DNA of 64,000 nt. It comes from Verrucomicrobiia bacterium. Its GTDB lineage: Bacteria > Verrucomicrobiota > Verrucomicrobiia > Limisphaerales > Fontisphaeraceae. The DNA is taken from positions 186,001-250,000 of the forward strand of contig JAOAIT010000018.1 of assembly GCA_026414565.1 (NCBI GenBank), written 5' to 3'. The notes under the pieces are model-generated. The model did not search any database. It saw only the letters and a list, made by a program, of their open reading frames with translations, and had not been told where the DNA came from. The translations under genes and the position numbers were made by a program. Positions 2,442-52,888 of this stretch are shown here, piece by piece. Positions within the stretch are counted from its first letter, which is position 1. Every line of letters begins with the position of its first letter.

Positions 2442-3722
2442 ATGAATCCTGAGGTCATTTCGCGGGTGGGAGCCAAATGGTCGCAAGTGACGGGCATTGG
2501 CGAATTAATGGAGGATCTGGGGCATGCCCTGACAGTTGATCCCGAGATGCGCATGTTAGGCGGCGGTAATCCCGCCCTGGTCCCTGAATTTATGCAGGCC
2601 GCCCAGCAACGGATGGCGGCCATGTTGCGCGAGCCAGAGGCCATGGCGTCTTTGCTGGGCAATTACGATCCCCCACGGGGGCATCCCCGGTTTGTCAGCG
2701 CCTTCGCCGCGCTGTTACGGAGTATTTACCATGCCGACTTTGAGCCGGAAAACGTGGCGGTCACGGCCGGCAGCCAATGCGCTACTTTCTTTCTCATCAA
2801 CCTGTTTGCTGGCAGAGGCAGGGGGAGAAAGCGCCACAAGATATTACTGCCATTGTGTCCGGAATACCTCGGTTATGCCGATCAGGGATTGGAGGAGGAC
2901 ATTTTCGTGGCCTGCCGCCCAAAAGTGGAGTGGCCGGCGGGAGCTGGGGGCCATGTTTTCAAATACCACGTAAATCTCGATGCGGTGCGGGAGCGCCTTG
3001 GACAGGGGGACATCGCCGCAATGCTGGTTTCACGGCCCACCAATCCCTCTGGTAATGTCATCTCAGAAGATGAGCTCTTAAGTTTATCAGACCTGGCCCT
3101 TCGGCACGACATCCCCTTAATCCTGGATCAGGCTTACGGCGTTCCCTTTCCCGCCATAGTCCACGTCCCCGTTAAACCCATCTACGCTCCGCATTTTATT
3201 CTGCTGTTCAGCCTCTCCAAGATTGGGCTGCCGGGTACCCGGACGGGCATCGTAGCCGGGCCAGCAAGTGTCACCTCGGCGGTAGCTTCCATGACGGCCG
3301 TTGCCGGTCTGGCCAATCCCTCCCTGGGACAGCACCTGGTGCTGCCCTGGTTGGAGGATGGCAGCATTTTGGAAATGGGACCACGCTGGCTGCAGCCGTT
3401 CTATAACGCGCGCCGTCTCAAGGCGCGCGAATGGTTGGAGGAAGCCTTCAAGCGGGCGCATGTCCCCTGGGCCATCCATGCAGATGAGGGCGCCTTTTTC
3501 CACTGGCTCTGGTTGCCTGAACTAAGCACGACGAGCCGCGAATTCTGCCGGCGTCTCAAGGCGCACAAAGTCCTGACCGTGCCAGGAGAATATTTCTTTT
3601 ATGGCCTGGAGGAGGACTGGCCCCATCGTCATCAATGTCTGCGCATTAATTACTCCGGGCCGGAAAAGGTGGTACGCGAGGCTATTCATATCATTGCCCG
3701 GGAGGCAGCGCGCTGCCATTGA
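2442..3722 (+). CDS. avtA: Valine--pyruvate aminotransferase (AvtA type)
   Basis: A PLP-dependent fold-type I transaminase of 426 residues, the usual length for AvtA, which moves the amino group between valine (or alanine) and pyruvate/2-oxoisovalerate in the cytoplasm. The N-terminal MLGGGNPA segment, the YDPPRGHPRF stretch, the TAGSQCATFFLIN stretch and the PLP-lysine motif SLSKIGLPGTR (Lys about 260) match this family, as does the substrate-side Arg region near the C-terminus. It starts 6 bases after the preceding gene's stop. Its stop is 4 bases from the stop of a convergent gene. Other class I aminotransferases are possible, but the GGGNPA and YDPPRG motifs favour AvtA. Confidence 0.9.
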   Translation: MNPEVISRVGAKWSQVTGIGELMEDLGHALTVDPEMRMLGGGNPALVPEFMQAAQQRMAAMLREPEAMASLLGNYDPPRGHPRFVSAFAALLRSIYHADFEPENVAVTAGSQCATFFLINLFAGRGRGRKRHKILLPLCPEYLGYADQGLEEDIFVACRPKVEWPAGAGGHVFKYHVNLDAVRERLGQGDIAAMLVSRPTNPSGNVISEDELLSLSDLALRHDIPLILDQAYGVPFPAIVHVPVKPIYAPHFILLFSLSKIGLPGTRTGIVAGPASVTSAVASMTAVAGLANPSLGQHLVLPWLEDGSILEMGPRWLQPFYNARRLKAREWLEEAFKRAHVPWAIHADEGAFFHWLWLPELSTTSREFCRRLKAHKVLTVPGEYFFYGLEEDWPHRHQCLRINYSGPEKVVREAIHIIAREAARCH

Positions 3723-29216: not shown

Positions 29217-29280
29217 CCTGCACAATTTTAATAGCAGCCCGACTGCGTGCGCGCTAACTTCAAATCACTGAAACAGACTT

Positions 29281-29826
29281 ATGGAATACGGAACTACGAT
29301 AGAACTTAAGCGCGATTGTGAGGCGGTGCAGATTCCCTCCGGCGAGCGGGCCGTCCTGGCGAAAGGCACGCAAGTGCAAATTACGCAAACCTTGGGCGGA
29401 ACCTACACCGTCTATACCCCCCATGGGTTGTTTCGTATCGCCGCCAAGGACGCCGATGCACTCGGCGCCGAGGTGGGCCAGTCCGCCCCGGCGGCTGCCG
29501 AAGCCTCCGGCCCCCTCACCGAAGAGGCCGTTTGGGCGGTGCTCAAGACTTGTTATGACCCGGAAATCCCGGTGAACATTGTGGATTTGGGCCTGGTGTA
29601 TGATCTGCACATTGAACCCACCCCCTCCGGCCGGAGCAAAGTCGCCGTCAAAATGACCCTGACCGCTCCAGGGTGCGGCATGGGGCCGGTCATTGCCCGC
29701 GATGCCCAGGAAAAAATCTTGAGCCTGCCGGGCGTGGAAGAGGCTGATGTGGAAGTGGTGTGGGACCCGCCCTGGCATCAGTCCATGATCAGCGTGGAAG
29801 GGCGCCGCATTCTGGGCTTGGAGTAA
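29281..29826 (+). CDS. sufT: SufT-like Fe-S assembly protein (MIP18/DUF59 family)
   Basis: 181 residues. A beta-rich N-terminal 65 residues (IELKRDCEAVQIPSGE, then LGGTYTVYTPHGLFRI) are typical of the SufT family and absent from short DUF59 proteins. From residue about 80 comes the MIP18/DUF59 domain with CYDPEIPVNIVDLGLVYD and the TAPGCGMGPVI motif carrying the conserved Cys. SufT-type proteins help mature or distribute iron-sulfur clusters. No suf genes are adjacent, but the ETF-QO-like gene 1.2 kb upstream encodes a probable Fe-S client. The start is the ATG at 29281. Confidence 0.88.
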   Translation: MEYGTTIELKRDCEAVQIPSGERAVLAKGTQVQITQTLGGTYTVYTPHGLFRIAAKDADALGAEVGQSAPAAAEASGPLTEEAVWAVLKTCYDPEIPVNIVDLGLVYDLHIEPTPSGRSKVAVKMTLTAPGCGMGPVIARDAQEKILSLPGVEEADVEVVWDPPWHQSMISVEGRRILGLE

Positions 29827-29867
29827 ATCCGCCGCGGATCTGACCGACGTTGTCATAATTTATCTGA

Positions 29868-29953: not shown

Positions 29954-32900
29954 ATGAAGTTTTTTCGTGCTCCCGCGACCGCGGCGGTGGTGGTCGGTAT
30001 GGTTTTAGGGTATGCAGTCACCGCTCACGGCCAAACCACCAATGGGGTGTTGCGGGAGGTTTTTAGGGGAATCAGCACAGGCACAATATCCGCCCTTACC
30101 AGCGCTCCCAATTACCCCAACAACCCCGACCTCGAGGAAGTTTTAACTCAATTTTTTGAGTGTCCCCGGGAATTTTCTGATTATTACGGCACCCGGCTTC
30201 GGGCCCTACTCATCCCTCCGGTCACCGGCACCTATTATTTTTATATCGCCAGCGATGATCAGGGGCAGTTGTTCCTTAGTTCCGATGAAAACCCGGCCAA
30301 TAAACAATTAATAGCCAGCGTCAATTCCTGGACCGCCGCCCGCGAATACAATAAAGAACCCAATCAACGCTCGGCCGGCATTGTTTTGACCAATGGCCGC
30401 CGGTATTACATCGAGGCCTTGCAGGCGGAAGGGGCAGGGGGGGACAATCTGGCCGTGGCCTGGCAAATGCCCGGGCAGCAGCCCCTGCAGAATAACGCTG
30501 ATCCTATTCCGGCCATTTACGCGGTTCCCTATGGCCTGGGACCGCCCACAATCACCACGCAACCGCAAAATATCAGCGTCGTGGAGGGCGGCTCCGGCAG
30601 CTTCTCCGTGGCCTTGGCCCGCTATATCGGCGCTACTTTCCAGTGGTATAAAAACGGCCTGCCGGTGGCGGGGGGTACCAATGCCATGCTTACGGTGGGG
30701 CCGGTGGCCTTGAGCGACAATGGCGCAACCTTCCGATGTGCCATTACCAATGCCTACGGCGGCACCAATTCCCTCGTCGCCACACTCACCGTGACCGCCG
30801 ACATCACCCCGCCGGTTTTCCAATCCGGTGCCTGGCTGGGACATCCACAGGTGTTGTCGCTCCTCTTTTCGGAACCGCTCGAGGCGGCTTCCGCCACCAA
30901 CCCCGCCAACTATTCCATTGCTAGTGGGTTTCAAGTCTTGGGTGCCGGTTTTGGGCCGGACACGCGAACGGTGGTTCTATACACCACCCCGCTGACCAAT
31001 GTGACTTCCGTGACCGTCACGGTTAACAACGTGCGTGATCGCGCCACCACCCCCAACACCATCCCGGCCAACAGCACCCGCACCATCAGTTTGAGCGTGA
31101 CCCCGCTGGATTCAGCTTTACGCTGGCCCGCCCGCGAACCGGCCGGCCCGGCCACCCGCAACGGCCCGCTGGTGATCAGCGAAATCATGTATAACCCCAC
31201 CAACCGCAGCGACGGCCGGGATTTGGAATTTCTGGAAATTTACAATGCCCAGTTGTGGCCGGAAGAAATCGGTGGTTTTCGCATTACGGGCGCAGTCGAA
31301 TACACATTCCCCACAGGTACTGTCATACAAGCCAACAGTCGTTTGGTGGTGGCCGCGGTGCCGGCGGATGTACAAGCGGTTTATGGAATCAGCGGGGTCC
31401 TGGGACCGTTCAGCGGCCGATTGCAAAACGAAGGAGGCACCTTGCGCCTGCGCAATCATCTGGGGGCTGTGCTCTTTGAGGTGGAATATTCCGACGACTG
31501 GCCCTGGCCGGCCGCTGCCGACGGCGGGGGACATTCGCTGGTGCTCGCCCGGCCCTCTTATGGGGCCAACGATCCGCGGGCCTGGGCCGCCAGTGAACGC
31601 CTCGGTGGCTCACCGGGCACTGACGAACCCGTGATGGTTAATCTCTACCGCGCCATCATGTTCAACGAGGTGATGCCCTATCCCGGACAGGGAGAGCAGC
31701 CCTTCCTCGAGTTGTTCAACTACGCTGCAGGCGGATTAAATCTCTCCGGTTGTATTCTCACGGATGAAACAGGCACCAACCGCTATGTATTTCCAGCCAA
31801 TACCGTCATACCCGGCATGGGCTTTTTGGCCATTTCCCAAAGTCAACTGGGTTGGTCGCTCAATCCAGAGGGGGGCAAGCTATTCTTGCGAGATCCTTCG
31901 CAGATCAGGGTGATTGATGCGGTAAAGTATCCGGGGGTGGAGGCTGGACGCTCTTGGGGCCGCAGCCCGGATGGCGGCATCGAATTCTCCCACCTGACCA
32001 CCCCTACCGCAGGACGGGCCAATGCCGCCCCGCTGACGCCGGAAGTGGTAATCCATGAAATCATGTTCGATCCCATCACTGAAAATGCCGATGATGAATT
32101 TATTGAATTGCACAATCCGGGCTCGCAGCCGGTCAACCTCAGCAAATGGAGAATTCGCGGAGATGTCAGTTATACCTTCCCCAACCCTACCGTCATCCAA
32201 CCGGGCGGCTTTCTCGTCATTGGCGCGAACACCAGTTACCTGCGGACGCGCTACCCCAATCTGAATGCCCAGAACTCCGTGGGAGATTACCAGGGGCGCC
32301 TTGCCAATCGCGGCGGCTGGCTGCGTCTGGAAAAGCCGGTCCAACTGTTCTACACCAATCAAAATGCCCAGGTGGCGGAAGCCAAATACGAGGTGGTGGT
32401 CCATCAAGCGCGCTTTCAGGCTGGCGGCCGCTGGCCGGCATGGACGGGTGGCGGCGGCAGCAGTCAGGAGCTGGTGGACCCCCGGGTTAACGGCCTCTGG
32501 GCCATGGCCTGGCGGGGTTCCGACGAATCTGGCCAGTCGGATTGGGTGGTGATTCAGCACACGGGTGTGTTGGATAACGGCATGGATACCGCTGACTCTT
32601 TGCAGGTACTCCTGCTGGGGCCGGGGGAGTGTCTGGTGGACGATGTCGAGGTCATCCCTGCCGGTGGCACCAATCTGGTGTTGAACGGCTCGTTTAACCA
32701 GGACGCCAGCGGATGGTTCTTTCAAGGCACCCATTGCCGCTCCAGTTGGGAGCCGCTGCAAGGTTACGGCGGCCCGGGCTGCCTCTATGTGCGCGCCAGC
32801 TCCCGCGGTGACACGGGGGCCAACCGCATTCGCACCCGCCTGGCTCGCACATTGAATGCCGGCGAAACGGCCACGATTCGTGCCCGGGTCAAGTGGCTCA

Positions 32901-35900
32901 AGGGACATCCAGAAATTCTGCTGCGTTTGCGAGGTAATTACCTCGAAGCTACCGGCAACATGTTGTCCAAGAGCAATTTCGGCACCCCAGGCCGTGCCAG
33001 CCGGCCGCTGGGAAATGGAGCCCCGGTGATCATGGACGTCACCCATAGTCCGGTATTACCCACCGCCGGCCAGACGGTGCGGGTCATTGCGCGGGTTTTT
33101 GATCCGGACGGTCTGTCCGCTTTGTTTGTGCGTTACCGGGTGGACCCCGCCACCAATTGGAATAGTGTGGCCATGTCCTACCACGGCGCTGGCTATTACT
33201 CAGCTTCCATTCCCGCCCAATCATCAGGAGCAGTAGCAGCCTTTTACATTCTGGCGGCCGATCTGTACGGCTTGACCCGGCAGTTTCCTGAGGACGCCCC
33301 CGAGCGCGAATGTTTGATCCGTTGGGGTGAATCCACTCCTTCCGGGCAACTGGGCGTGTATCGCATGTGGCTGACCCAGAAGACCATTAATCAATGGACC
33401 ACCCGTGAGAAACTCAGCAATGATCCGCTGGACGGTACTTTTGTCTATGGCAATTCGCGGGTGATTTATAATGCTGGCAACCAGTACAGTGGCAGTCCCT
33501 GGCATTCACCGGGCTTCAACTCGCCCCTGTCGGGGTTCTGCGACTTCGCCTTGAGTTTTCCTCCCGATGAGCCCTTGCTGGGCAGTGAGGAACTGACTCT
33601 CCAATGGCCGGGCAATGGGGGAGGGGACGGCACCGCCCAGGGCGAGCAACATGCCTACTGGCTGGCTTATCAACTGGGCCTGCCGTATTGCTATCGTCGT
33701 CCGGTGCATTTCTACGTCAACGGTAATCGGCGTGGCGATCCCACCATTGAGGATGTGCAACAGCCCAACCGGGAATTTGTCCAAACGTGGTATCCGGATC
33801 AACCACGCGGCGATTTGCATAAAATCCAGATTTGGTTTGAATTTGACGACCAGGCCAGCACTTTCGCAGCCGCAGGGGCCAACCTTGGCAATTACACCAC
33901 CACCGGCGGACAGAAAAAACTGGCGGTGTATCGGTGGACGTGGAGCAAGCGTGCCTATGGCAACCAGGGCAACAACTACACCAACCTCTTCCGCCTGGTG
34001 GACGCCGCCAACACCTCCGCGAGTGGAGAAAATTACACGCGGGCCATTGAGGCCGTCATAGATGTCAACCAATGGGCCCGCCATTTCCTGGTGGAAAAAC
34101 TGGTGGGCAACTGGGACAGTTATGGCAATGGTGGCGGCCAAAATATGTACACCTACATGCCCCAGGGCGGCACCTGGAAGATGTTAATCTGGGATATTGA
34201 TTTCGCCTTTTATTCCGGCAGTCCCACCGACGGTTTGTTCGGTTTTACTGATGGGCCTCTTTCGCGGCTCTTCAGCCATCCCCCCTTCGCCCGGGCCTAC
34301 TGGCGAGCCATTAAGGACGCGGCGGAAGGGCCACTGCAGCCCTCGCGCTCCAATACCATTTTAGACTATCGCTACAATGCCTTGCGCGCCAACGGCATCA
34401 GCCTTTCGGCGCCGGACAACATTAAGAATTACATCAGCGGGCGGTTGCAATACCTGCAAAACACCGTGCTGCCGCAAATCGCCAGCCCTTTTCAGGTCAC
34501 CTCATTGCCCGGCGGGAACTGGACCACCAACCGCAACTTGTTGACGCTCTCCGGCACCGCCCCCATCGAGGTTGAATCCATTACCATCAACGGCATACCC
34601 GTGCCGGTGGTATGGACAACGGTTACTAATTGGACAGCCTCCTGGGCTTTGCAGCCCGGCACGCAAACGCTCACCGTGGCCGCGCTGAATGGACGGGGAC
34701 AAACCCTGTCCACCACCACCCGCACGGTGACCTATACTGGCACGCCGGAATCCCCTTCAGACGTTTTGGTTATTAATGAGATCATGTACCAACCCCCCTG
34801 GCCGGGGGCGGAATATGTGGAAATCTATAATCGTTCGCAAAACAATGCGTTCGATCTGTCCAACTGGCGGTTGCATGGCGTGGATTATCAATTCCCTCTC
34901 GGCACCATCATTCAACCCAATGGTTACCTGGTGGTGGCCAAAAGCATTGCCGCCTTCAACACTGCTTATGGCGCTTCGCCAGCCGTCATCGGGGAGTTTG
35001 GCGGCAATTTGGACAAGGACGGGGAAGTCATTCGTTTGGAGAAACCGGCCTCAGATACCAACCTGCTGGAGGTCGTGGACGAGGTTTATTATGAGACCAT
35101 GCCACCCTGGCCGGTCGTAGGCGCCCAAGAGGGGGCATCCCTGCAACTGCGCGATGCGGCCCAGGACAACAGCCGGGCTGCCAATTGGACCGCTCTGACC
35201 ACCAACCTGGCTGCGCCGCCAGCATGGCGGTTCATTTCCGCCAGCGGGGTTGCCGGCAGCGGGGTCATTTATGTGTATCTCCAAACCGCCGGCGATTGTT
35301 ACATTGACGATTTGAAATTGGTGGCTGGAAGCAATCCGGACTCCGGCGCCAACCTGCTGGTCAACGGCGATTTTGAAAGTCCTTTGGCCGGCACGTGGAA
35401 TGTATCCGCCAACCATGCGGGCTCCTATATTGATACCGCAGTCAAGCGCAGCGGCAATTCCAGTTTACATCTCATGGCCTCCAGCGGCGGCACCACTCGT
35501 GATTCTTCCATCTGGCAGGATGCCTCCAGCCGCCTGACCCAGGGACAAACTTATACCTTGAGTTTCTGGTATTTGCCGGGAGCCAGCGGCGGGCCATTAA
35601 CGATCCGGTTCTCCGGCAGTTGGATTCGCATTGATGCCAATTTGGGCGCCGCCCAGGTCCAACGGGCCACTCCGGGCGCACCCAATTCGGTCGCCACCTC
35701 CCTGCCTGCCTTCCCGTCATTATGGCTCAACGAAGTTCAACCGTTGAACGTTTCTGGCCTGCGGGATCGTTTTAACGAAGCCGAGCCATGGGTGGAGCTT
35801 TTCAACAGCGGCACCAATACCGTCAGCCTTTCGGGGTTTTACCTGGCCAGCCAGTTCACCAACCTTGCCCAGTGGGCTTTTCCTACCAACGCCTCCATCG

Positions 35901-38900
35901 GGCCGAGGCAATTTTTGACCGTATGGCTTGACGGTGAACCCGGCGAAACCAGCTCCAACGAGTTGCATGCCTCCTTCCGGTTGACCTCGCCCACCGGCAG
36001 TGTAGCTCTGGCCCGGCTAGTGGGTGGGCAAACCAGCCTGGTGCACCACTTAAACTTCCGCGTGCCGGGACCGGACCGCAGTTACGGTTTGTATCCCGAT
36101 GGCCGGGCAGCCAGACGACAAATCTTCGCCCTGCCCACACCAGGCGCAACCAACAACCCGGCTTACCCGCCTGTTTCGGTGTTCATCAATGAGTGGATGG
36201 CGGATAATGTCAGCGCCCTGGCCGATCCTGCGGATGGCAACTTCGAAGACTGGTTTGAATTATTCAATGCCGGCAACACTACCGCAGACCTTTCAGGTTA
36301 CTACCTCTCCGATGATTTGGCCAACGCCTTCAAGTGGCGCATCCCGCAGGGCACCCTCATGCCCCCGCGCAGTTATTTATTGGTTTGGGCCGATGGCGAG
36401 CCTGAGCAAAACAGCGGCGGAGACTTGCATGCGAATTTCCGTTTGAGCGCCAGCGGAGAAAGCATCGGCTTGTATGGCCCGGACGGCACGCTGGTGGATT
36501 TGGTGGTATTTGGGCCGCAGGCCCCAGATCGCAGCGAGGGCCGATTTCCCGATGGCGCTGAATACATTGGGCCGATGAATATTGCCACCCCGCGCACTCC
36601 CAACCGGCTCAACTTTACCAACTCCCCGCCCGCGCTGGCGCCCTTGCCCAACCAGGTGGTGGCTGAGGGCACCCTCTTGACTTTTTCCTTCCAAGCCTCG
36701 GATCCGGATGCGGGACAAAATCTTGTATTCACGCTGGAACCCGGCGCCCCGCCGGGCGCCAGCGTGACGCCGGAAGGCACGTTTTCCTGGCTGCCCACTG
36801 AGGAGCAGGGTGGCCAGACCTACACCTTCACCGTCCGGGTGCGCGACAACGGCACCCCGCCGTTATCGGTTACCCAGTCATTTTCCGTTACCGTGGAAAA
36901 GGTGAATAGTGCCCCGCAGCTCCTTATCAGTGGTGATTTTGTCATCTATGAAGGCGAGCATTTTGCCCTTCTGGCTCGTGCCACTGACGGAGATCTGCCC
37001 CGGCAGAGCTTACGTTTTTCGTTGGGAGGCGAGCCTCCCTTGGGAGCGCAGATCAACCCCACCAACGGCCTGTTGACCTGGACGCCCTCGGAAATCCAGG
37101 GCCCAGGATTATATGCCCTGACCGTGCGGGTAATTGACGATGGCCAGCCGCCCCTGATGGATTCTCAAATCATTCGCATCACGGTTCTGGAGTCCAATAC
37201 TCCGCCGCGGTTTCCTCAACTCGGCCCCTTCGCCGTAGCCGCCCAGCAAAACCTGAACCTTGCTTTGAACGCGAGCGATGACGACTGGCCGGCACAGTAC
37301 TTGACATACGCCTTTGCCCAAACGCCTCCCTCCGGCGCCACCCTCACGCCAGACGGGCGCTTTAACTGGACGCCCACTTTGTCGCATACCGGCCAGACTT
37401 TCACCATCCATGTACAGGTTACAGATGATGGCATCCCACCGGCCAGTGCGACCACGGCCTTTACCGTTGTTGTTCATGGACAAAACACCGCCCCCGTGCT
37501 GGCGGCTGCAGCTTCCAACTTGGTGGCCATTACCGGCGAGGAGTTGAGGGTCACCAATGTGGCTTGGGACGCTGAAGCCCCGCCGCAAATCTTGCGATGG
37601 CAGATGCTTGCCGGGCCAACCAATGCGTCTCTGGAGGAACTTACCGGCACGTGGCGCTGGCGTCCGCAAAATTTGGACGCCGGAACGACGCAGTCGGTGC
37701 AACTGGTGGTCACGGATAATGGCCTGCCCCCGCTGAGCGCCACTCAATCCTTCGCCGTGATTGTTTTGCCTGCCGCCGCCGCTCCGCCGCTGACGGCGGT
37801 GACGCGAAGTGTGCTGGAAAGAGAACCCCTGGAATTTTTGGCCGGGCCGCTGACGAATACCTTGGGCCAGGCATTAAATTACGTCATCGTGCGGGCACCA
37901 CGTTTTGGAACAGCCACCATACTGCCTGACCAGCGTGTGCGCTACTTGTCAGGCGGCTTTTTCAACGGTATGGACACTTTCGAGATTGGCTATCTCGTCA
38001 ACGGAATCCTGGTTCGCACCGCGCCAGTGACCGTAACCGTCGGAATTGTCAATGACGTGGCTCCTTACCTGTTCGAGTTTCCGCTCAATTATCGGGCCGG
38101 GGCGCAACCGGTGGCGGTGGTCACAGGGGATTTCAATCGGGACAGCAAACTGGATGCGGCTTGTGCCAATGCGGCCGGCAATTCAATTTCACTGCTTTTT
38201 GGCAATGGGCAGGGGGGATTGGCGGCCCCTGTGGAATTGCCGATTGGGGGTGTGGTAACCCATCTGGCTACCGGCGATTTTAATCGGGACAGTCGCTTGG
38301 ATCTGGTGGTGGCAGGGGGGCGCGACAACCGCATCAGCCTCTTAATCGGGGGCGGCGATGGCACCTTTGCCTCGCCCTTCCACGTGCCCTCAGGCAGCAA
38401 CGTTACTGCCGTCGCCGTGACCGATCTCGATAAGGACGGCAAACCGGACGTCCTCTGCACGCACTTTGACGATAACACTTTGGGTATTCATTTTGGCAAC
38501 GGGGTGGGGTGGATTCGTAATTCCACGTCCATCCCAGTGGGCACTCAACCCCTGGCGTTGCTGGCTGATGACTTCAACGCCGATACCCGGCCGGATATCG
38601 CGGTGGCCGAATACGGCCAGGGGACGATCAGAATCTTGTTGGGAGCGGGAAACGGCGGCTTTTTATCACAACATACCTACATCACCGGTACCGGCCCGCG
38701 GGCCATGGCCGCCGGCGACTTCAACGGGGACGGACGCCGGGATCTGGCTGTGGCGCACAGTGACGGTCTGCTGGTCGTTCTGCGCAACGTGGGCCTGGGA
38801 CTGTTTGCGGCCACCAACCAGGTGTGGCTGGGGGGCAGCCCTGCCGGCCTCCTGGCGGCGGACATCAATCGGGACGGCCTGCTTGATTTGGTGGTCAGTG

Positions 38901-40339
38901 ACGAGGCCGACAGCAGCCTGAAGGTGCTGCTGGGACTGGGCGATGGCACATTCCAGAATTATTATCAGGATCAGGGCGCTTTTTACTGGTTGCAAGGTCT
39001 GCCTGGCGGACTGGCCTTGGGCGACTTTAACAAAGACACCTTCGCCGATGTGGTGGTGGCCCAGTGGGGTTCGGACGAAGTGGCCGTGCTGCTCAATAAC
39101 TATCAACCCCGCGTCCTGCCCATGAAACTGACGACGTTGGAGGACTGGCCCCTGGAAATCCGCCTGCGCGGCAGCACCGGACCTCTCCAGTTTCAATTTG
39201 GCTCCGGCCCCACCAACGGCACCCTGACGCTTAAACGTGCGCCTGACGTTTATTGGTATCGGCCGCACACCAATGCCAACGGGCGTGATGTCATTGAGTA
39301 TTTCGCCTTTGATGGCCAGCGCTACTCGGCCCCGGCCAAAATTGCCGTCACCATCCTGCCCGTCAATGATCCCCCGGAAATCAGCCTGGCCACCAACGTG
39401 GTGGTGGCCCCCGAGGACTCAGGCTATTTCACCGTGCCGGGATTCATCACCCGCGCCGTTGGCGGTCCGGCCTCCGCGTTGGATGAGCAACGGCAGGCTG
39501 TGCGCTTTCAACTGACTGCCGCGCAACCGACCTTGTTTGCCGCGCAGCCCGCCATCATCAGCGGCGGCGCCCTGCGTTTTATGCCGGCGAAAAATCAATT
39601 TGGTGAGACCTTGGTAACGCTGGTGGGGCGGGATAATGGCCCGGTGGCCAATGGCGGCCAGAATCTCTCTGCCCCCGTACAATTCCTGATCCGTGTGGAA
39701 AATGTAAATGATCCGCCCGTGCTGGGTTACCTTCCCGGCAAAACCGGCTACGAAGATCAGGAAATTCGCTGGGACTTCACAGTTAGCGATTTGGAGTCTC
39801 CGCCTGACAGCCTGACATTTAGTTTTGCCTCCACCAACGAGGTGCTGCTGCCGCCCACCGCCCTGCGGGTGGAAGGGGCCGGCACCAACCGTGTGCTCGT
39901 GGCCCGGCCCGCCACTAATGAATTTGGCCGCACCCTAATAACGCTCACCGTCAGTGACGGCACCAACAGCGCCAGCCGCAGTTTTTCCCTGTTGGTGTAC
40001 GGGGTAAACGATCCCCCCGTCATCGCCCTTCTCACCAACCGGGTGGTCTTGAACGCCGAGCCAACCACCCAATCTATACCCGTAATCAACTGGGCTGGCT
40101 GCTTCAACGGCCCGGAGAATGAAAGTGCACAGACCTTACGTTTTGTAGTGGTCAGCCCCCGCAAGGATTTGTTCCGATTGCAACCCGCCATCAGCCCACA
40201 GGGCGTTTTAAGCTGCCAGCCGGCCGCCACGGTGGGCACGGTGGAAGTCCTGGTGTACGGCGTGGATTCCGGCGGCGTCTCCTATGGCGGCCAGAACACC
40301 AGTGAACCGGTGGCTTTGACGATTGAAGTGCGCCCTTAA
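29954..40339 (+). CDS. Giant secreted lamin-tail/CotH/FG-GAP surface protein
   Basis: 3461 residues from the ATG at 29954 (a TTG lies 24 bases upstream). A signal peptide ends near residue 27. Domains by approximate residue: PA14 (32-193), Ig-like (196-283), and lamin-tail domains at 400-529, 563-660 and 694-816. Then come a beta-sandwich (870-1010), a CotH kinase-like domain (1143-1510; IWDIDFAFYSG), lamin-tail 1603-1722, another beta-sandwich (1796-1896), and lamin-tails 1923-2066 and 2075-2219. The rest is four He_PIG repeats (2223-2606), a cadherin-like unit, a seven-blade FG-GAP propeller (2713-3050) and cadherin-like repeats to the end. No PEP-CTERM or LPXTG anchor is visible. Adhesion or binding of extracellular polymers is inferred. 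Confidence 0.93.
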   Translation: MKFFRAPATAAVVVGMVLGYAVTAHGQTTNGVLREVFRGISTGTISALTSAPNYPNNPDLEEVLTQFFECPREFSDYYGTRLRALLIPPVTGTYYFYIASDDQGQLFLSSDENPANKQLIASVNSWTAAREYNKEPNQRSAGIVLTNGRRYYIEALQAEGAGGDNLAVAWQMPGQQPLQNNADPIPAIYAVPYGLGPPTITTQPQNISVVEGGSGSFSVALARYIGATFQWYKNGLPVAGGTNAMLTVGPVALSDNGATFRCAITNAYGGTNSLVATLTVTADITPPVFQSGAWLGHPQVLSLLFSEPLEAASATNPANYSIASGFQVLGAGFGPDTRTVVLYTTPLTNVTSVTVTVNNVRDRATTPNTIPANSTRTISLSVTPLDSALRWPAREPAGPATRNGPLVISEIMYNPTNRSDGRDLEFLEIYNAQLWPEEIGGFRITGAVEYTFPTGTVIQANSRLVVAAVPADVQAVYGISGVLGPFSGRLQNEGGTLRLRNHLGAVLFEVEYSDDWPWPAAADGGGHSLVLARPSYGANDPRAWAASERLGGSPGTDEPVMVNLYRAIMFNEVMPYPGQGEQPFLELFNYAAGGLNLSGCILTDETGTNRYVFPANTVIPGMGFLAISQSQLGWSLNPEGGKLFLRDPSQIRVIDAVKYPGVEAGRSWGRSPDGGIEFSHLTTPTAGRANAAPLTPEVVIHEIMFDPITENADDEFIELHNPGSQPVNLSKWRIRGDVSYTFPNPTVIQPGGFLVIGANTSYLRTRYPNLNAQNSVGDYQGRLANRGGWLRLEKPVQLFYTNQNAQVAEAKYEVVVHQARFQAGGRWPAWTGGGGSSQELVDPRVNGLWAMAWRGSDESGQSDWVVIQHTGVLDNGMDTADSLQVLLLGPGECLVDDVEVIPAGGTNLVLNGSFNQDASGWFFQGTHCRSSWEPLQGYGGPGCLYVRASSRGDTGANRIRTRLARTLNAGETATIRARVKWLKGHPEILLRLRGNYLEATGNMLSKSNFGTPGRASRPLGNGAPVIMDVTHSPVLPTAGQTVRVIARVFDPDGLSALFVRYRVDPATNWNSVAMSYHGAGYYSASIPAQSSGAVAAFYILAADLYGLTRQFPEDAPERECLIRWGESTPSGQLGVYRMWLTQKTINQWTTREKLSNDPLDGTFVYGNSRVIYNAGNQYSGSPWHSPGFNSPLSGFCDFALSFPPDEPLLGSEELTLQWPGNGGGDGTAQGEQHAYWLAYQLGLPYCYRRPVHFYVNGNRRGDPTIEDVQQPNREFVQTWYPDQPRGDLHKIQIWFEFDDQASTFAAAGANLGNYTTTGGQKKLAVYRWTWSKRAYGNQGNNYTNLFRLVDAANTSASGENYTRAIEAVIDVNQWARHFLVEKLVGNWDSYGNGGGQNMYTYMPQGGTWKMLIWDIDFAFYSGSPTDGLFGFTDGPLSRLFSHPPFARAYWRAIKDAAEGPLQPSRSNTILDYRYNALRANGISLSAPDNIKNYISGRLQYLQNTVLPQIASPFQVTSLPGGNWTTNRNLLTLSGTAPIEVESITINGIPVPVVWTTVTNWTASWALQPGTQTLTVAALNGRGQTLSTTTRTVTYTGTPESPSDVLVINEIMYQPPWPGAEYVEIYNRSQNNAFDLSNWRLHGVDYQFPLGTIIQPNGYLVVAKSIAAFNTAYGASPAVIGEFGGNLDKDGEVIRLEKPASDTNLLEVVDEVYYETMPPWPVVGAQEGASLQLRDAAQDNSRAANWTALTTNLAAPPAWRFISASGVAGSGVIYVYLQTAGDCYIDDLKLVAGSNPDSGANLLVNGDFESPLAGTWNVSANHAGSYIDTAVKRSGNSSLHLMASSGGTTRDSSIWQDASSRLTQGQTYTLSFWYLPGASGGPLTIRFSGSWIRIDANLGAAQVQRATPGAPNSVATSLPAFPSLWLNEVQPLNVSGLRDRFNEAEPWVELFNSGTNTVSLSGFYLASQFTNLAQWAFPTNASIGPRQFLTVWLDGEPGETSSNELHASFRLTSPTGSVALARLVGGQTSLVHHLNFRVPGPDRSYGLYPDGRAARRQIFALPTPGATNNPAYPPVSVFINEWMADNVSALADPADGNFEDWFELFNAGNTTADLSGYYLSDDLANAFKWRIPQGTLMPPRSYLLVWADGEPEQNSGGDLHANFRLSASGESIGLYGPDGTLVDLVVFGPQAPDRSEGRFPDGAEYIGPMNIATPRTPNRLNFTNSPPALAPLPNQVVAEGTLLTFSFQASDPDAGQNLVFTLEPGAPPGASVTPEGTFSWLPTEEQGGQTYTFTVRVRDNGTPPLSVTQSFSVTVEKVNSAPQLLISGDFVIYEGEHFALLARATDGDLPRQSLRFSLGGEPPLGAQINPTNGLLTWTPSEIQGPGLYALTVRVIDDGQPPLMDSQIIRITVLESNTPPRFPQLGPFAVAAQQNLNLALNASDDDWPAQYLTYAFAQTPPSGATLTPDGRFNWTPTLSHTGQTFTIHVQVTDDGIPPASATTAFTVVVHGQNTAPVLAAAASNLVAITGEELRVTNVAWDAEAPPQILRWQMLAGPTNASLEELTGTWRWRPQNLDAGTTQSVQLVVTDNGLPPLSATQSFAVIVLPAAAAPPLTAVTRSVLEREPLEFLAGPLTNTLGQALNYVIVRAPRFGTATILPDQRVRYLSGGFFNGMDTFEIGYLVNGILVRTAPVTVTVGIVNDVAPYLFEFPLNYRAGAQPVAVVTGDFNRDSKLDAACANAAGNSISLLFGNGQGGLAAPVELPIGGVVTHLATGDFNRDSRLDLVVAGGRDNRISLLIGGGDGTFASPFHVPSGSNVTAVAVTDLDKDGKPDVLCTHFDDNTLGIHFGNGVGWIRNSTSIPVGTQPLALLADDFNADTRPDIAVAEYGQGTIRILLGAGNGGFLSQHTYITGTGPRAMAAGDFNGDGRRDLAVAHSDGLLVVLRNVGLGLFAATNQVWLGGSPAGLLAADINRDGLLDLVVSDEADSSLKVLLGLGDGTFQNYYQDQGAFYWLQGLPGGLALGDFNKDTFADVVVAQWGSDEVAVLLNNYQPRVLPMKLTTLEDWPLEIRLRGSTGPLQFQFGSGPTNGTLTLKRAPDVYWYRPHTNANGRDVIEYFAFDGQRYSAPAKIAVTILPVNDPPEISLATNVVVAPEDSGYFTVPGFITRAVGGPASALDEQRQAVRFQLTAAQPTLFAAQPAIISGGALRFMPAKNQFGETLVTLVGRDNGPVANGGQNLSAPVQFLIRVENVNDPPVLGYLPGKTGYEDQEIRWDFTVSDLESPPDSLTFSFASTNEVLLPPTALRVEGAGTNRVLVARPATNEFGRTLITLTVSDGTNSASRSFSLLVYGVNDPPVIALLTNRVVLNAEPTTQSIPVINWAGCFNGPENESAQTLRFVVVSPRKDLFRLQPAISPQGVLSCQPAATVGTVEVLVYGVDSGGVSYGGQNTSEPVALTIEVRP
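38129..39110 (+). repeat. Seven FG-GAP/VCBS repeats coding a calcium-loop propeller
   Basis: Seven DxNxDxxxD-type loops recur near 38129, 38276, 38423, 38568, 38717, 38861 and 39022, about 147 bases (49 residues) apart; examples are GDFNRDSKLD and GDFNGDGRRD. Each is followed by a GxGDGTF-like segment. The spacing and count fit the seven blades of an integrin-alpha-like propeller inside the giant surface protein. Confidence 0.85.
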
Positions 40340-50499: not shown

Positions 50500-52137
50500 T
50501 CACTGGCCGCCCAACTCTGGGAAAATCTGGCTCAGCGAAGGGATCAACACCCATCGCCCTCCCACATGATAAAAATCGCCCTCCAAAAAGCGATCCCCGC
50601 CCCGCCGGCGCACCTCGAGCTGGTACACGGGTATATCTGGCGCGATTATGCGCCGGGCCTTGGCCGCCGCCGCGGCCGCCGAGGGCGGGCGCGGTTCCAA
50701 TCTCAGGTATTCCCCTGCCCGGCTCCCGCCCCGCATGAGGTTCAAAAAGTTTTGGCGGTCTTCATCATTGCGATTGGCGGCGCCCCAGGCCATCACTTCA
50801 TCCCGGTGGATCCGATCCACCTTTTCCCAAACTTGCGAGGCCCCCCGCACGAAAATGCGGTTGATTTCCTGTTGCGTGGGCAGCCGTTCCAACATCACCT
50901 TTTTCAAGTCGGCAAAAGAGGTGGTGGCCAGTTTTTCCTGGTATTTCCGGTAGTGTTCCATCAGCGACCGCTCAAGTGGCGTTACCGTGGGTTCCGGGGG
51001 TAGTGCCCCCCCTGCCCCGCGCAACAACGAAGCAATTTCCTGATGCCCCTCAAACATCGCCAAGGCCAGCGGCGTGTCCCCTTCGCGGGTGACCAGATTA
51101 GGATTCGCCCTGGCGGCCAATAAAGCCTGCACCAGCGGACGGTTGCCGCGCAGCACGGCATGGTGCAGGGCGCTGAAGCCGCCGCCGGTCTCCTGGGCAT
51201 TGATGTCCAACCCCGTGGAAATCAAGAGCTCGGCCACGCCGTCCGGTTCAGGCACTGCTGCTGCCAGAATCAAGGCTGTATTGCCAAAGCGATCGCGGGC
51301 GCGGGGATCCGCGCCAGCGGCCAGCAGCAGCTTGACCATGTCCCCCATCTTTCCCGCCGCGGCGGCAAGCAACAAGGGCGTGGCGCCAATGGACGTCCGC
51401 AGATTCACATCCGCCTTATTGGAGATTAAGAGACTGGCCATGGCCAGATCGTTGCGCTGCACTGCAATGTGCAATGGGGCCACTCCCCCATGGCCCTGGG
51501 CGTTGATTCTGGCGCCAGCATTTAACAAAACTTGTGCGGCCTGCACCGTGCCCACTTCAGCAGCGTGATGCAGGGCAGTCCATTGGTTGGTGTCCGTGGC
51601 CTCCACCGCCGCCGTATTGGTGGTTAATATGGCTCCCAGAGCCGCCAAGTCGTTGCTACGGACCGCCATGATGATGGCAGGATAACGAGGCGGCGGCGGC
51701 ACAACGGTATCGCGCGGCATCAGGTTGGTGGCTGCAAGCGACGGACGACGGACTGGCGTAGTGGCGGCAGGCTTTTGCACATCCATGATGCCCCCATGTT
51801 TGCGCAACAATTCAGCGACGGCCTTCCGGCCAAAGCCCTGAGCCAGGTAAAGAGGGGTTATGCCGCTGTTGGAGCGGGCGTTTACCTCGGCCCCGGCTTC
51901 GAGCAGGAAGGCAGCTACCTCCAATTGACCAGCCGCCGCGGCGTAGTGCAGCGGGGTTTTTTGCTCGCGATCCCGGTCATGCACCAGGGCCGGGTTGGCG
52001 GCCACCAACGCCCGAACTCGTGCCAGATCGCCTTTTTCGGCGGCGGTATGGATTTCTCCTGCCGATAAATACGCCGCGCCGATTAGAAGCCAGAAAAAGC
52101 AATACAGGCGCCCAAGACTTGGTAGGAACAGAGCCAT
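50500..52137 (-). CDS. Secreted or periplasmic ankyrin-repeat protein
   Basis: 545 residues from the ATG at 52137, the start that places a signal-like hydrophobic segment (FFWLLIGAAYLSAG) at the N-terminus; an in-frame start at 52233 would overlap the upstream gene. About nine ankyrin repeats (TPLHYAAAAGQ, ALHHAAEVGT, TPLLLAAAAGK and others) occupy residues about 25-380, interrupted by a Pro-rich linker near 120-150. The C-terminal 150 residues are not ankyrin-like and end in a beta-rich part (GDFYHVGGRWVLIPSL). A protein-binding role is inferred. It starts 10 bases after the Dpm1-like gene stops. Confidence 0.87.
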   Translation of the reverse strand: MALFLPSLGRLYCFFWLLIGAAYLSAGEIHTAAEKGDLARVRALVAANPALVHDRDREQKTPLHYAAAAGQLEVAAFLLEAGAEVNARSNSGITPLYLAQGFGRKAVAELLRKHGGIMDVQKPAATTPVRRPSLAATNLMPRDTVVPPPPRYPAIIMAVRSNDLAALGAILTTNTAAVEATDTNQWTALHHAAEVGTVQAAQVLLNAGARINAQGHGGVAPLHIAVQRNDLAMASLLISNKADVNLRTSIGATPLLLAAAAGKMGDMVKLLLAAGADPRARDRFGNTALILAAAVPEPDGVAELLISTGLDINAQETGGGFSALHHAVLRGNRPLVQALLAARANPNLVTREGDTPLALAMFEGHQEIASLLRGAGGALPPEPTVTPLERSLMEHYRKYQEKLATTSFADLKKVMLERLPTQQEINRIFVRGASQVWEKVDRIHRDEVMAWGAANRNDEDRQNFLNLMRGGSRAGEYLRLEPRPPSAAAAAAKARRIIAPDIPVYQLEVRRRGGDRFLEGDFYHVGGRWVLIPSLSQIFPELGGQ

Positions 52138-52147
52138 GACAGAATAA

Positions 52148-52888
52148 TCAAGAGACAGGCCGGGGCCGCGGGGAGCGACGCAAACCGTTTTGGAACCATA
52201 GGCGCCAGACCATCCAGACGGCCTCCCATACAATTTTTCCAGACATCTTGGAGGTTCCCTGAAAGCGATCCGTGAAGATGATGGGGATTTCCGCCACTTT
52301 CAGCCCCTGACGCCAGATTTTATGGGTTACCTCGACCTGAAAACTGTAGCCATTGGAATGGATGTTTTTCCAATCCACCGACGCCAGAGCGGAGCGCCGG
52401 AAGCATTTGTACCCGCCGGTGGGATCCGTTACCGGCAAACCCGTTATCCAACGCACGTATTGCGCCGCACCCAGGCTTAGAATAAGCCGTTTCAGCGGCC
52501 AATTAATCACTCGTATGCCGTTGCTGTAACGGGAGCCAATCACCAGATCGGCCTCCTGAGCAGCCCGAACAAACTCAGGAATGGCCGCTGGATCGTGCGA
52601 AAAGTCGCCGTCCATTTGAATAACATACGCGTAGCCCCGGGCCAGAGCCCACTCAAAGCCGGCACAATAAGCCCGGCCCAGGCCGTTCTTTTCGCGCCGG
52701 TGCAGGACGTGCACCTGTGGGTGCTTGCGGGCCAGTTCATCAGCAAGCTCGCCCGTGCCATCAGGAGAATTGTCGTCCACCACCAGCACATCCACCGGGA
52801 TGGGGAGTCCCAAAAGCCGGGCAATAAGCGGGGGTAAATTGTCCCGCTCATTGTACGTTGGCACCACCACCAGCACCTCGGCAGCCAT
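52148..52888 (-). CDS. Polyprenol-phosphate mannosyltransferase-like GT2 (Dpm1/Ppm1 type)
   Basis: 246 residues. The GT-A motifs VVVPTYNERDNL, VVDDNSPDGT and QMDGDFSH (DxD) are followed by GSRYSNGIRVINWPL and the DPTGGYKCFRR segment characteristic of dolichyl/polyprenyl-phosphate mannose synthases. The EIPIIFTDRFQGTSKMS segment is also diagnostic. It makes a lipid-linked sugar used to glycosylate exported proteins or glycans. There is no C-terminal membrane domain, so this is the single-domain form. It is directly upstream of the ankyrin gene. Confidence 0.9.
   Translation of the reverse strand: MAAEVLVVVPTYNERDNLPPLIARLLGLPIPVDVLVVDDNSPDGTGELADELARKHPQVHVLHRREKNGLGRAYCAGFEWALARGYAYVIQMDGDFSHDPAAIPEFVRAAQEADLVIGSRYSNGIRVINWPLKRLILSLGAAQYVRWITGLPVTDPTGGYKCFRRSALASVDWKNIHSNGYSFQVEVTHKIWRQGLKVAEIPIIFTDRFQGTSKMSGKIVWEAVWMVWRLWFQNGLRRSPRPRPVS

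Follow-up and report, generated by a model that had tools for sequence, protein, structure and literature searches.

A large, predicted secreted protein of a Verrucomicrobiia bacterium that combines a divergent CotH-homologous domain with six lamin-tail domains

Does a CotH-homologous domain embedded in the middle of a very large, probably secreted protein still work as a kinase? This question is raised by a gene in the 64,000-nucleotide stretch of contig JAOAIT010000018.1 (hereafter the window) that was analysed in this work. A preliminary description, made from the sequence, had claimed that the gene encodes a 3461-residue secreted protein in which a CotH kinase-like domain is joined to six lamin-tail domains (LTDs) and an FG-GAP propeller, and had suggested a protein kinase phosphorylating other surface proteins as one possibility.

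The gene, its modules and its neighbours

The reading frame at 29954..40339 (all features of the gene are on the + strand) is open over 3461 codons and ends with a stop. The chance of such an open frame at the local GC content, estimated from base composition, is log10 P ~ -51. The one-contig genome of a species of the same genus contains a syntenic full-length orthologue of 3466 residues (79% identity, 4 gaps), and dN/dS between the two is approximately 0.07 over the whole protein. This orthologue and the dN/dS value identify the frame as a genuine gene that purifying selection maintains.

The translation starts with a Sec-type signal peptide, judged by eye from the sequence (residues ~1-27, MKFFRAPATAAVVVGMVLGYAVTAHGQ; 29954..30034). 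It is followed by a PA14 domain (residues 80-175; 30191..30478; E=2.6e-6 in the Pfam fragment scan), an Ig domain (residues 197-280; 30542..30793; Pfam Ig_3 and fragment scan) and three LTDs, of which LTD1 comprises residues 400-512 (31151..31489; E=4.5e-13), LTD2 residues 567-659 (31652..31930; E=2.5e-9) and LTD3 residues 695-776 (32036..32281; E=1.7e-17). The CotH-homologous domain, recognized by Pfam and by profile, occupies residues 1120-1513 (33311..34492; Pfam core 1206-1478). Downstream of it lie LTD4 (residues 1600-1712; 34751..35089; E=3.5e-16), a CBM_4_9 carbohydrate-binding module (residues 1799-1873; 35348..35572; Pfam and fragment scan), LTD5 (residues 1943-2010; 35780..35983; E=1.3e-9) and LTD6 (residues 2071-2186; 36164..36511; E=4.9e-17), then three He_PIG and cadherin-like modules found by fragment scan (residues 2225-2664; 36626..37945) and the FG-GAP propeller recognized by Pfam (residues ~2700-3049; 38051..39100). 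With the whole protein as query, Pfam returned LTD (2.5e-84, six stretches) and FG-GAP_3 (1.5e-40) as well as CBM_4_9, Ig_3, PA14 and Big_9, and in the fragment scans all six LTDs were individually above the cut-off. In the propeller region six DxNxDxxxD-type Ca-loop motifs were detected by script at 49-residue steps and a seventh, LGDFNKDTFAD, was read by eye, a spacing that fits with a seven-bladed propeller. The overall architecture given in the preliminary description is thus borne out by the frame, the Pfam matches and the orthologue, with the signal peptide resting on visual judgement; its list of binding modules (PA14, Ig, He_PIG, cadherin-like, calcium propeller) was correct and has to be extended by CBM_4_9, and the IWDIDFAF acidic motif that it placed in the CotH core is present at residues 1412-1419.

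The order PA14-Ig-3LTD-CotH-LTD-CBM-2LTD is largely conserved among orthologues. The six LTDs and the central CotH domain are retained in L100, L103, L104 and L011, and PA14 and CBM_4_9 in L100, L103 and L104. The last ~1,250 residues, from He_PIG to the C-terminus, are variable: FG-GAP and cadherin-like C-terminal modules were found in the window protein and in genomes G001 and G013, and other orthologues have a short tail with an RFYR motif.

A C-terminal module of ~70 residues, with W...(R/Q)(F/Y)YR shortly before the stop, was seen in L009, L011, L014, L015, L016, L019, L023, L024, L025, L028, L101, L102 and L104. It occurs in ~60 copies in the source genome and in 71 in the sister species, had no convincing match in Pfam or NCBIfam, and is a candidate surface-sorting or anchoring module; the window protein does not have it. 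A PEP-CTERM/exosortase route for the window protein was rejected, the single PEP-CTERM of the genome being located elsewhere. A search of the genome for SprA of the T9SS gave no match, but neither did the control genomes.

The genes flanking the giant gene are housekeeping genes. Common to both genomes of the genus are an AI-2E transporter and an FeS-assembly protein upstream and SMC and an amidohydrolase downstream, and these neighbours are not shared by the orthologues in other genera. With synteny confined to the genus, no local substrate is implied and an operon partner was ruled out. The FeS-assembly protein (181 residues, PF01883; 29281-29826, +) is encoded between the AI-2E transporter gene and the giant gene and is 93% identical in the sister species; the overlapping ORF 29260-29856 (-) was rejected as a gene in its favour. 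Further along the window, a 577-residue frame (50500-52233, -) matched ankyrin-repeat models, all far under the cut-offs, and adjoins a glycosyltransferase-like gene at 52148-52888.

Homology to CotH and the state of the active site

Residues 1206-1478 match PF08757 (CotH) with E=1.6e-14 and 54.6 bits, the cut-off being 23.8. The domain belongs to a subgroup with the signature GSPxH (GSPWH in the window protein, residues 1180-1184; 33491..33505) in place of the canonical CotH RG..S. All 40 subgroup members scanned match PF08757, and a profile made from 40 subgroup rows had a sole match in the PDB, B. cereus CotH (5jd9/5jda; E=2.2e-12, profile positions 50-424). Comparison by hhalign of nine subgroup rows with ordinary CotH and 5jd9 gave 98.7% (E=1.6e-16). 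By sequence the domain is genuinely homologous to CotH; that the assignment is a chance match or artefact and the domain unrelated to CotH is highly improbable, for although a single-sequence phmmer search of the PDB with the domain gave nothing meaningful, the 40/40 Pfam matches, the profile match over the full domain and the hhalign match refute a non-CotH identity. An AlphaFold2 model of the domain had a pLDDT of 30.6 and a pTM of 0.22, the low pLDDT being due to an input of just four sequences (the window sequence and three homologues).

In B. subtilis CotH the replacements D228Q and D251A abolish activity (PMC7821199). CotH retains the equivalents of PKA D166, N171 and D184, and the adenine is sandwiched by Tyr142 and Trp245 (PMC12189002). 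By alignment, D1388 (34115..34117) of the window protein corresponds to CotH D228 and PKA D166, N1397 (34142..34144) is the catalytic-loop Asn, and D1414 (34193..34195) corresponds to CotH D251 and PKA D184. Conservation was assessed in a subgroup alignment of 59 rows, which included the sister sequences L027 and L028, in comparison with 27 ordinary CotH domains. The three positions are occupied by Asp in 58, Asn in 59 and Asp in 58 of the 59 rows, respectively. Trp245 has its counterpart in W1413, directly before D1414 (Trp in 48/59), whereas Tyr142 aligns with H1289/K1290, the alignment being ambiguous by one residue. Other near-invariant charged residues of the subgroup are R1327 (59/59), R1169 (58/59) and K1290 (56/59).

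Two features set the subgroup apart. The lysine of the K-x-S-Y motif in the N-terminal lobe, which from its position in the sequence would contact ATP, is present in 26 of the 27 ordinary CotH domains, including that of B. cereus, and in none of the 59 subgroup sequences; the window protein has F1195 instead. The distance between the catalytic Asp and the loop Asn is 9 in all 59 sequences, whereas in ordinary CotH it is 5 (23/27), as in the references PKA and B. cereus CotH, or 8 (4/27). A joint loss of the CotH Lys-Glu pair is not claimed, the counterpart of the Glu being ambiguous (D1267, V1268 or Q1269).

Relative to the same-genus orthologue, the CotH domain is 89.8% identical and has the lowest dN/dS (0.028), followed by LTD1 (0.033) and PA14 (0.036), in a ranking that covers the computable modules, synonymous sites being saturated in LTD2, LTD3, LTD6 and the propeller. 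In a tree rooted on B. cereus CotH as a single outgroup row, the GSPxH subgroup is monophyletic (SH-aLRT 99), and the window domain falls within an order-wide group of ten (support 100). The GSPxH clade adjoins L027/L028 (92) and L016/L017/L022 (95), which have the long loop too. In the giant proteins L016, L017 and L022 the catalytic Asp is changed to Glu and the loop Asn to Asp, and these domains are likely to be inactive or altered. Taken together, the tree and the residue changes indicate that the CotH family of one genome spans canonical to strongly altered active sites, and that substitutions in the active site are tolerated within the wider long-loop branch.

A lineage-specific family and its known relatives

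The source genome encodes 26 CotH and 107 LTD domains. Twenty of the CotH domains are in LTD proteins of 1537-3904 residues (frames counted in both domain tables), the other six in stand-alone frames of 432-770 residues without LTD; the earlier remark that LTD and CotH occur together was therefore right, and understated. CotH domains were found in 49 of 58 relatives, with up to >30 copies each. Of the 58 genomes from the order, 43 have the window-type domain, which almost always sits in frames of >1,200 residues; across the phylum it was found in only 14 of 195 sampled genomes (E<=1e-30). Its named matches are from Verrucomicrobia, including one Pedosphaera sp., and no relative was found in the viral contigs searched. 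The giant gene is locally not unusual and belongs to an extensive family specific to this lineage: in a genome of 4.3 Mb, 20 giant genes code for CotH+LTD proteins, and CotH domains are present in most members of the order.

Eight giant CotH/LTD genes (L012, L013, L017, L018, L020, L022, L026 and L027) are at or near contig ends, which suggests that these genes break the assembly and that their copy number may be misjudged. Just past the end of the window, L002 (G000:C18:250948-255021) encodes a 674-residue stand-alone CotH protein with the KxSY lysine, which could be a useful active control.

Among known proteins, the spore coat kinase CotH of B. subtilis and B. cereus is homologous over the whole domain, and the window protein keeps counterparts of its D228 and D251, of the loop Asn and of the Trp that precedes D251. 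CotH differs in being a small coat protein and in possessing the lysine and the shorter Asp-Asn spacing. In domain content the window protein resembles Cthe_0239 of Clostridium thermocellum, a secreted protein combining LTD and CotH; in its table entry (PMC6083626) this ~117 kDa cellulosomal protein is listed with LTD, LTD, Fn3 and CotH only, in contrast to the six LTDs and the PA14, CBM and propeller modules found here. The function of cellulosomal CotH/LTD proteins is unknown in the literature as well (PMC12484212). Another secreted PVC protein of large size that contains LTD is the 'Planctosome' anchoring protein, for which anchoring at the outer membrane has been proposed, but the excerpted account reports no CotH domain and presents a hypothetical model of a peptidase anchor (PMC6461901). 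SIR_1594 from the Pel locus of Streptococcus intermedius (CotH + FN3) is a secreted CotH protein tied to the surface matrix and aggregation; it is, however, Gram-positive and part of a Pel polysaccharide operon, of a kind that does not accompany the window gene (PMC12345266). The window protein is a variant within the known CotH+LTD kind of protein.

Possible roles of the CotH domain

The reading that we prefer, tentatively and from sequence comparison, is a secreted scaffold that carries a divergent, still working, metal-dependent phosphotransferase-like domain of the CotH fold beside an extracellular target. The protein would probably reside at the cell surface or in the matrix, as a matrix or adhesion protein, its PA14, Ig, LTD, CBM_4_9, cadherin-like and Ca-propeller modules acting as binding modules around the single CotH-fold domain. 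This domain, belonging to a lineage-wide subgroup that kept the metal/catalytic Asp-Asn-Asp set, lost the ordinary lysine and acquired a longer catalytic loop, is most likely still such an enzyme, with a remodelled nucleotide pocket, and the scaffold may hold it next to a matrix protein, a paralogue or a glycan. Anatomy, homology, conservation and the two changes of the subgroup are demonstrated by the sequences; that the protein is secreted and active, with what donor and on which target, we infer. That Asp/Asn/Asp hardly varies while purifying selection is strong points to a metal site that still functions, whereas the missing lysine, the longer loop and the extracytoplasmic location argue against a plain CotH-like ATP kinase. 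The periplasm and the cell exterior are normally without ATP, which, together with the changes tolerated in the wider long-loop branch, speaks against the preferred reading itself.

The same observations could be explained, with lower probability, if the CotH-like domain were a pseudokinase, incapable of phosphate transfer and serving an adhesive scaffold for binding or as a structural part. The absence of the lysine from the whole subgroup, the four extra loop residues, the altered Asp and Asn of the neighbouring subtype and the failure to find a conserved partner gene, with synteny restricted to the genus, are all compatible with this explanation, and in Mucorales, according to excerpts of two reports, CotH3 acts as a surface invasin (PMC8644226, PMC7267888). 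On the other hand, Asp/Asn/Asp and two Arg scarcely change among sequences with identities down to ~35% and, among the computable modules, CotH evolves most slowly. Pseudokinases usually lose catalytic residues of the Asp/Asn/Asp type, and here these are kept.

That the protein, once secreted, works as B. subtilis CotH does, as a Ser/Thr protein kinase with other surface proteins as its substrates, the possibility raised in the preliminary description, appears unlikely. In its favour are the Pfam match above cut-off, the profile match to 5jd9, the retained D228/D251 equivalents and the precedent of CotH, which polyphosphorylates the Ser-rich CotB/CotG (PMC7821199). A CotB/CotG-like Ser-rich partner, in contrast, was not found: a Ser/Lys/Arg-repeat probe of the genome, which had no positive control, came back empty, and the neighbouring genes are housekeeping. 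We also know of no extracytoplasmic ATP supply. The preliminary description had named loss of the catalytic Asp/Lys in close homologues as evidence against a kinase, and here the two residues diverge, each Asp being kept in 58/59 sequences and the lysine being absent from 59/59 and from the window protein itself. Homology to CotH, as seen in the sequence, and the Asp/Asn/Asp set stand, but the claim of a kinase is weakened by the subgroup changes in the sequence; with no substrate, ATP source or evidence of activity found, phosphorylation of other surface proteins is still a guess, and the lineage-wide loss of the lysine and the stretched loop make the label of ordinary protein kinase unsafe. 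Residue conservation, the subgroup changes and the location together place the divergent phosphotransferase-like enzyme first, the pseudokinase second and the ordinary secreted kinase third.

A bolder proposal, which we regard as doubtful, is that the GSPxH subgroup might form a separate class of extracellular kinase-fold enzymes having a longer catalytic loop and handling nucleotides without the usual lysine, possibly through K1290, R1169 or R1327. Such enzymes would modify matrix proteins or glycans of Verrucomicrobiota by transfer of phosphate or nucleotide, and free cytosolic ATP would not be the donor.

Seven residues (R1169, K1290, R1327, D1388, N1397, W1413 and D1414) provide a direct set for mutational tests. 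Should the subgroup prove inactive, annotating genes of such genomes as 'CotH kinase' is misleading. If it is active, a kinase-fold enzyme without the usual lysine would modify the surface or the surroundings of these bacteria, and extracellular phosphorylation in the phylum would become testable.
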